Virus record (IMG/VR): IMGVR_UViG_3300046167_000156
Location: 1 to 34,999 of that record
Length of the DNA stretch: 34,999 nucleotides
Direction: 5' to 3' (one strand)
Origin: a virus
Within the stretch, counting starts at the first letter, position 1; every line of letters begins with the position of its first letter. The translations under genes and the position numbers were made by a program. Positions 33,774 through 34,999 of the stretch are shown one piece after another. The notes beneath the pieces are model-generated. The model was given only the letters and a program-made list of their open reading frames with translations, searched no databases and was not told the DNA's origin.

Positions 33774-34999
33774 ATGTTAAGACCTAAAAAGGGCATGATG
33801 ACTGGTTATGTTAAAGGCGGTCCTACAAAACAGGCCCCTATTGTTAGGCCAGTGGCAGAGCCTGCTCCTGCTCCTGCTCCTGCTCCTGCTCCTGCTCCTG
33901 CACCTGCACCTGCACCTACTCCAGCCCCACCTAGGACGGAACCAGAGCCAAGTTTAGACGATGTTTTGCCAGACCCCTTAGGTTTTGCTCCTAGTGGCGA
34001 CGACAAAGATGATGAGTACGCATATCCCGAAGAACTTGATCCAGTCCGGGAAGGACAAGAAGAGTTTGATCGTCTACTAGAAGAGTGGGATCAATTTATA
34101 GAAGATCAACTTCGTTATATTGAGGACCAAGCCTCTGACGACATTGACCGTGTTTATCTTGCTCAAGAACTTCGAGAACTTCAAGACTTGTTTGCACAGT
34201 ACGAAGCTGGTGAAATAACTGCAGAAGAGTTTCTTGAGTTTGAGCCTGACTTTATTTTGGACGTGCCCGGAGCTACAGAGTACTGGGAAGGTCTTCAAAA
34301 TGCCGTAACAGAAATTGAAGAAGAAGAAGGTGATCCCGGAGACTTGTTTGAGCCTGATACGCCTCTTGAAGAATCTGAGTACGAAGAACAAGAAATACCT
34401 CCTCCTGAAAACGTGTATGAACCTGAACTAGAACCGGAAGAAGAAGAGGAAGAACCCGGTGGTGGTGCTGCTGAAGCTGCTCCTGAAACAGAAGGAGAGC
34501 CTACTGAACAGGCTGAAACAGAAGAAGAAACAGAGCCAACAGGCCCAGTAAAAGGAGACCCACCAAGACAAGCCCCTATATCGCAGGAGCCTGTAGAAGT
34601 AGTAGACATTGCCGAGGAAGATACAGTAGAAGATGCTGACTCTGAGTTAGCTGACACTGTTCCTGTAGAAGGTGGCCTTGAGACAGAAACTGAAGAAGAA
34701 GAAGCTGAAGACGAAGTAACTACAGTAGAAGAAGTAGAAGAAACAGACGACGAAGACATTGTAAGAGAGCAACTTGAAGAGGCCATTGTTAGAGAAACTG
34801 ATCCAGAAGTTAGAGAAGGCTTAATCAGAGAGTGGGAACGCTATACAGACCGTGAGTGGACTACAGAAGTTGAAGAAGAAGCTGAAAGCAGGTACGAAGA
34901 AGCAGTTGAACAAGCTGAGGACATTACTGAAGAAGACGCAGTAGAAGACTCTGATCTTCCTTCTTTAGAAGACACTGGTCCTGAGTTTGGTGCAGAAGA
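33774..34999 (+). CDS. Acidic Pro/Glu-rich protein, amino-terminal part (continues at base 1)
   Basis: ATG 33774, three bases after the holin stop, with GGAAG upstream. MLRPKKGMMTGYVKGGPTKQ is followed by a (PA) repeat of about 19 residues, then acidic helical sequence dominated by Glu and Asp. The frame stays open to the edge with two bases left, which join base 1 to make GAC and continue into the 1-823 segment in phase. Total predicted length is 682 residues. Confidence 0.8.
   Translation, partial: MLRPKKGMMTGYVKGGPTKQAPIVRPVAEPAPAPAPAPAPAPAPAPAPTPAPPRTEPEPSLDDVLPDPLGFAPSGDDKDDEYAYPEELDPVREGQEEFDRLLEEWDQFIEDQLRYIEDQASDDIDRVYLAQELRELQDLFAQYEAGEITAEEFLEFEPDFILDVPGATEYWEGLQNAVTEIEEEEGDPGDLFEPDTPLEESEYEEQEIPPPENVYEPELEPEEEEEEPGGGAAEAAPETEGEPTEQAETEEETEPTGPVKGDPPRQAPISQEPVEVVDIAEEDTVEDADSELADTVPVEGGLETETEEEEAEDEVTTVEEVEETDDEDIVREQLEEAIVRETDPEVREGLIREWERYTDREWTTEVEEEAESRYEEAVEQAEDITEEDAVEDSDLPSLEDTGPEFGAE
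33861..33917 (+). repeat. 6-bp tandem repeat encoding (Pro-Ala)9-10
   Basis: CCTGCT units, changing to CCTGCA near the end, 57 bp in total. A third kind of simple repeat in the same protein, in addition to the 12-bp and 9-bp arrays near the start of the window. Confidence 0.9.

Follow-up and report, generated by a model that had tools for sequence, protein, structure and literature searches.

The window analysed here, a viral record taken at its entire length of 34,999 bases, has an open reading frame running off each of its edges: the list of open reading frames gives one at 33774..34997 that is open on the right and one at 2..823 that is open on the left. The last two bases of the window (GA) and base 1 (C) together give the codon GAC (Asp), and the frame then continues to a stop at 823. 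Read across the join, the plus-strand parts at 33774..34999 (408 codons and two bases) and at 1..823 (base 1 to finish the Asp codon, then 273 codons and the stop) form a predicted gene of 1226 + 823 = 2049 bases, coding for 682 amino acids. An initial annotation of this DNA had put forward exactly this continuation, in phase from 33774 over base 1 to the stop at 823, and the codon arithmetic agrees with it. Directly before the gene lies a plus-strand gene of unknown function (33427..33771, phrog_2524), which codes for a small protein with a membrane-like stretch and belongs to the lysis region; directly after it, on the same strand, comes a predicted head-tail adaptor gene (820..1467; Pfam SU10_adaptor, PF24175; phrog_10775).

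When the two ends of the whole 34,999-base record were compared with each other, no direct or inverted repeat common to both was found. Because the window ends without a terminal repeat, closure is invisible from the record itself, and the check for overlapping contig ends suggested in the initial annotation came back empty; continuity over the join was instead seen via relatives. To call a contig complete from its end repeats, CheckV asks for 20 bp or more at each end (PMC8116208). No such repeat is present in the record, so relatives were needed as proof of closure.

Relatives of both genes that flank the join (33427-33768 on the left and 820-1464 on the right) were collected from a viral contig collection, and the 89 loci (on 86 distinct contigs) that carry both genes in the same orientation form our comparison set. 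A single open reading frame of 315-2042 amino acids fills the gap between the flanking genes in 87 of the 89, starting 3-7 bases past the last matched codon of the first gene and ending no more than 18 bases from where the second begins; mostly the two overlap. The two exceptions are L010, where the frame is interrupted, and L076, where the longest frame begins later. In L010 (10348-12282) the acidic gene is broken after 644 codons, 1.8 kb before the adaptor gene, either by a frameshift or as a split gene. The initial annotation had named two separate genes with a conserved gene between them as the observation that would count against it; a conserved gene between the flanking pair is seen in none of the 89 loci.

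Across most of these loci the gap-filling frames diverge widely in sequence. The version in four contigs (L060, L087, L028 and L100) is close to that of the window; their alignments with it extend unbroken through the join for 1116-1276 bp, with zero inserted or missing bases at the join itself. Within 60 bases on either side, identity is 116/121 for L060, 110/121 for L087, 103/124 for L028 and 99/121 for L100, and in all four the residues GAED|VAE fall in frame at the join, inside one open reading frame. Taken with the 87 uninterrupted loci, these gap-free alignments show that the join 34999|1 is real sequence and that one predicted gene runs across it, as had been proposed.

The predicted 682-residue protein has a pI of 4.1 and consists of 30% Asp+Glu and 15% Pro, and its gene contains a 12-bp tandem array at 99-252 (99-373 if decayed copies are counted). 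The 74 distinct alleles of the locus can be sorted into 27 N-terminal and 13 C-terminal classes, which occur in 48 combinations. The last 50 residues are alike across the family, pairs scoring 37 at the median where shuffled sequences score 20; the first 50 residues of the 74 alleles are not, save that a short motif, G[ML][MLFI][TSV], recurs in 47 of them (1.2 expected). In the genomes of the same relatives the acidic gene is matched in only 13 of 20, and there over 39% of its length, while the flanking genes in those genomes match over their full length at median identities of 94% and 80%. Judged from these comparisons, the gene is a hypervariable, cassette-shuffled one, placed between the lysis genes and the head-tail adaptor gene. 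As it directly precedes the adaptor gene and varies in a fibre-like manner, we suggest, with less assurance, that the most likely role of its low-complexity product is that of a virion-associated tail accessory protein, in which the C-terminal segment is shared and the middle can be exchanged. Pfam and PHROG return only matches to proline-, glycine- or collagen-like repeats for this protein, and we claim no family for it; nothing specific was found in the literature on a hypervariable gene of this kind.

Relatives of 32.3-37.4 kb share the core gene set and gene order of the window and have their ends at other map points. The common order is terminases, portal, scaffold, capsid, fibres, lysis genes, acidic gene, adaptor and tail genes, and in the relatives as in the window the early genes come after the tail genes, on the other strand. 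In the window the late plus-strand genes include a putative small terminase gene (21294..21680; 128 amino acids), for which the only match is to an AT-hook (PF02178) and whose function is suggested by its position before the large terminase gene (22363..23613; phrog_2, E 1.2e-43), followed by genes for a portal protein (23615..25666; SU10_portal, PF23899) and a major capsid protein (27935..28909; phrog_267, E 6.4e-54; PF19821). The sizes, gene set and gene order of the relatives, along with homologues in which the sequence continues without a gap over the end-to-end join, indicate that an uncultured marine phage of podovirus type is represented here by a single, complete genome. The initial annotation had reached the same view in part from the presence of all phage modules once, an argument that is weak alone; it is the alignments that carry the proof of closure.

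Two further variable blocks were observed. Three genes of the tail region past the adaptor (3231-8530; 790, 435 and 535 amino acids) reach median identities of 27-42%, whereas the genes that flank them are 80-96% identical in the same relatives; PHROG gives no match for them, and Pfam none above its cut-off. The fibre genes at 28962-32563 form the other block, and the second of them ends in an intramolecular chaperone domain (Peptidase_S74, PF13884). The ribonucleotide reductase at 10344-12215, of the B12-dependent type (PF21995 insertion domain), is among the most conserved genes, with a median identity of 95% in relatives. Three large-terminase relatives (L266, L267 and L268) lie in bins labelled Sphingobacteriales, Verrucomicrobiales and Planctomycetaceae; these labels disagree and the contigs are probably misbinned phage sequences, so we take them to say little about the host.

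If the window is opened at an arbitrary point, where might the ends of the packaged molecule lie? Candidate termini are provided by a 185-bp intergenic block, present once in the window at about 20937-21121, upstream of the putative small terminase gene, which would thus be the first gene past the terminus. The block is homologous to repeats found at the ends of two relatives from different datasets. G006 (35,152 bp) has the same 190 bp exactly at its start and end, mapping to 20951-21120 of the window, and G035 has 200 bp of the same block (96%) at both of its ends. The right ends of the two repeats agree within one base and their starts lie 14 bases apart. Two true copies of a terminal repeat are expected to be identical, whereas the copies in G035 are only 96% alike.

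The viral collection was scanned with motifs for both edges of the block. Upstream of the small terminase gene, contig ends at first appeared diffuse over 0-500 bp; aligned on the edge motifs, the ends of relatives' contigs from several datasets were seen to cluster at both edges. With the first left-edge motif, four contigs begin 2-16 bases before the motif; against a background of about one contig end per 100 bases (Poisson), four starts in 17 bases has P = 3e-5, a count that takes in two contigs that prompted the idea. A scan with a second allele of the left motif gave four further contigs beginning within 22 bases (P = 2.5e-5; leaving out G002, which had been noticed before, gives 6e-4). 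On the right, three contigs stop within 1 bp, against 19 in the next 3000 bases (P = 3e-7). All these Poisson values should be read as coming either from counts that include the prompting contigs (the first set) or from windows picked after inspection. At single-base level, L435 starts exactly at the start base of G035 and L456 ends exactly at its end base. Two features of a T7-like genome are therefore found here: the same block stands at both ends of full-length relatives (G006 and G035), and independent assemblies have fixed ends in common, eight at the left within 22 bp over the two scans and three at the right within 1 bp. Starts at one edge, ends at the other and both copies in two full-length contigs point to a linear molecule with a fixed direct terminal repeat.

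On this evidence, we consider it probable that the window, a single complete genome, was joined end to end in silico and then cut arbitrarily inside the 682-residue acidic gene, and that the DNA in the virion is a linear molecule bearing direct terminal repeats some 170-200 bp long. The block at 20937-21121 would be the single collapsed copy of this repeat, just upstream of the terminase genes; this assignment, which draws on contig-end statistics and on the two relatives with the block at both ends, is the most likely one. By analogy with T7, replication would yield head-to-tail concatemers whose units are joined via one repeat copy, terminase would cut at the block edges with duplication of the repeat, and the molecule would be packaged with the terminase and structural arm first and the early arm last. 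An assembler would then merge the two identical repeats into a circle and open it at an arbitrary point. A T7-like virion DNA with short terminal repeats, collapsed in assembly, is thus the most likely form, and the genome is probably not circularly permuted. The initial annotation had favoured a circular or circularly permuted genome, a view that the clustering of contig ends at the block edges and the two relatives with the block at both ends do not support.

Some observations could be read differently. Many contigs of relatives run unbroken through the block, starts at the left edge scatter across 22 bp and do not all fall on one base, and the interior of the block is repetitive and able to break assemblies by itself. 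In addition, relatives' contigs are opened at many map points, and five of them (G007, G012, G018, G020 and G021) overlap themselves elsewhere on the map, over 68-1178 bases (about 961 bp in G007, 1178 bp in G020, 271 bp in G018 and 234 bp in G012). This is what one would see if the genome were circularly permuted and terminally redundant through headful packaging, with the clustering of ends near the terminase reflecting a pac site or a repeat-rich assembly trap. A pac site, however, would yield one edge and not two, and the ends cluster at both edges of the block, in opposite directions; moreover, in two full-length contigs the block stands at either end, and its right edge is the same in both. 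The self-overlaps are mostly imperfect (91-98.7%), as expected where assemblies run around a collapsed circle through different strains, although a permuted genome would also give self-overlaps. A spread of molecule ends over the whole map would favour headful packaging, and contigs are indeed opened at several points while also having ends clustered at one block, but contig breaks are not molecule ends. We regard headful packaging, also with a preferred start, as unlikely, albeit as the most serious competitor to a linear genome with fixed terminal repeats.

That the sequence closes without a gap would also suit DNA that is truly circular, in the particle or as a maintained form. The window, however, codes for terminase, portal and other structural proteins of tailed phages, which imply linear packaging; to our knowledge, all tailed phages with a terminase and a portal package linear DNA. 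No integrase, plasmid or partition gene was found among the proteins searched, and we consider circular DNA highly improbable. Least probable of all is a linear fragment that lacks sequence between two different genes of like composition, whose frames happen to be open and in phase. In its favour, no terminal repeat is present and phase agreement has, as the initial annotation stated, a chance of one in three, but homology supplied the decisive test, and we reject chance continuity on the 89-locus comparison and on the four independent contigs that continue base for base over the join.

The block itself varies among relatives. Its edges are conserved and its interior is variable, with a length of about 135-347 bp (e.g. 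in L161, L375, L188, L210 and L222). Arrays of DnaA boxes are present in 10 of 50 distinct block alleles, with 67 boxes in total against 0.3 in shuffled sequence; no such array is present in the window's own allele, which carries CATGCAA/CGTGCCAAC-type repeats instead.

Comparison with cultured phages places the preferred reading, a linear genome with short direct terminal repeats, among known arrangements. The Anabaena phage A-4L (Saffermanviridae, Kozyakovvirus) is among the best cultured matches to the window's capsid protein and shares its terminase-portal-scaffold-capsid order; its record is linear, and the terminase gene lies downstream of an end that bears an exact direct terminal repeat of 810 bp. 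However, capsid identity to A-4L is only 27%, the A-4L repeat is about four times longer, and in A-4L the tail genes come directly after the capsid gene, whereas in the window fibre genes, lysis genes and the acidic gene lie between. We do not place the window in the Saffermanviridae, given capsid identities of 27-29% at best, an adaptor without a match and a gene order after the capsid that differs from A-4L. Searches of the phage collection gave no close sequence match to the window: the adaptor has zero matches, the tail protein is 24-32% identical to proteins of Pelagibacter and other phages, and the terminase is 36-42% identical to those of unrelated phages over part of its length.

Closer in size are the repeats of the T7-like Klebsiella przondoviruses, which have direct terminal repeats of 180-183 bp at a fixed place, the same size class as the window's block (PMC10438801). 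Short-read and hybrid assemblers delete such 180-bp repeats of T7-like phages or put them mid-genome (PMC10438801). The window differs from T7-like phages in having its early and late genes on opposite strands, and the terminus proposed for it is drawn from the places where contigs end. Cobaviruses, marine podoviruses of Rhodobacteraceae, resemble the window in being marine and in carrying a cobalamin-dependent ribonucleotide reductase, and direct terminal repeats have been reported for cultured members (PMC6775973); in sequence they differ, the phage collection having given no close match to the window. In the CheckV framework, end repeats may stem from circular genomes or from linear genomes replicated via concatemers (PMC8116208), and contigs called complete by CheckV are, like the window, closed assemblies opened at an arbitrary place.

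As phenomena, closure and topology of this kind are ordinary; the DnaA-box alleles of the block and the cassette-shuffled gene are the more interesting by-products. One possibility, which we raise only tentatively, is that a widespread lineage of uncultured marine podoviruses has a terminal repeat with conserved edges, a cassette-swapped interior and, in some members, a DnaA-box array, such that the virion end may double as an exchangeable site of replication initiation or DnaA binding. The record is a full genome that the usual end-repeat test would miss, and its likely physical ends fall in the middle of the window, which alters both the stated genome start and the mode of packaging. Where contig ends cluster on a homologous block, the termini of uncultured phages can be proposed simply and without reads. 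This phage group has hundreds of public contigs and no cultured close relative, and annotating it correctly requires both its real ends and the single gene across the join.
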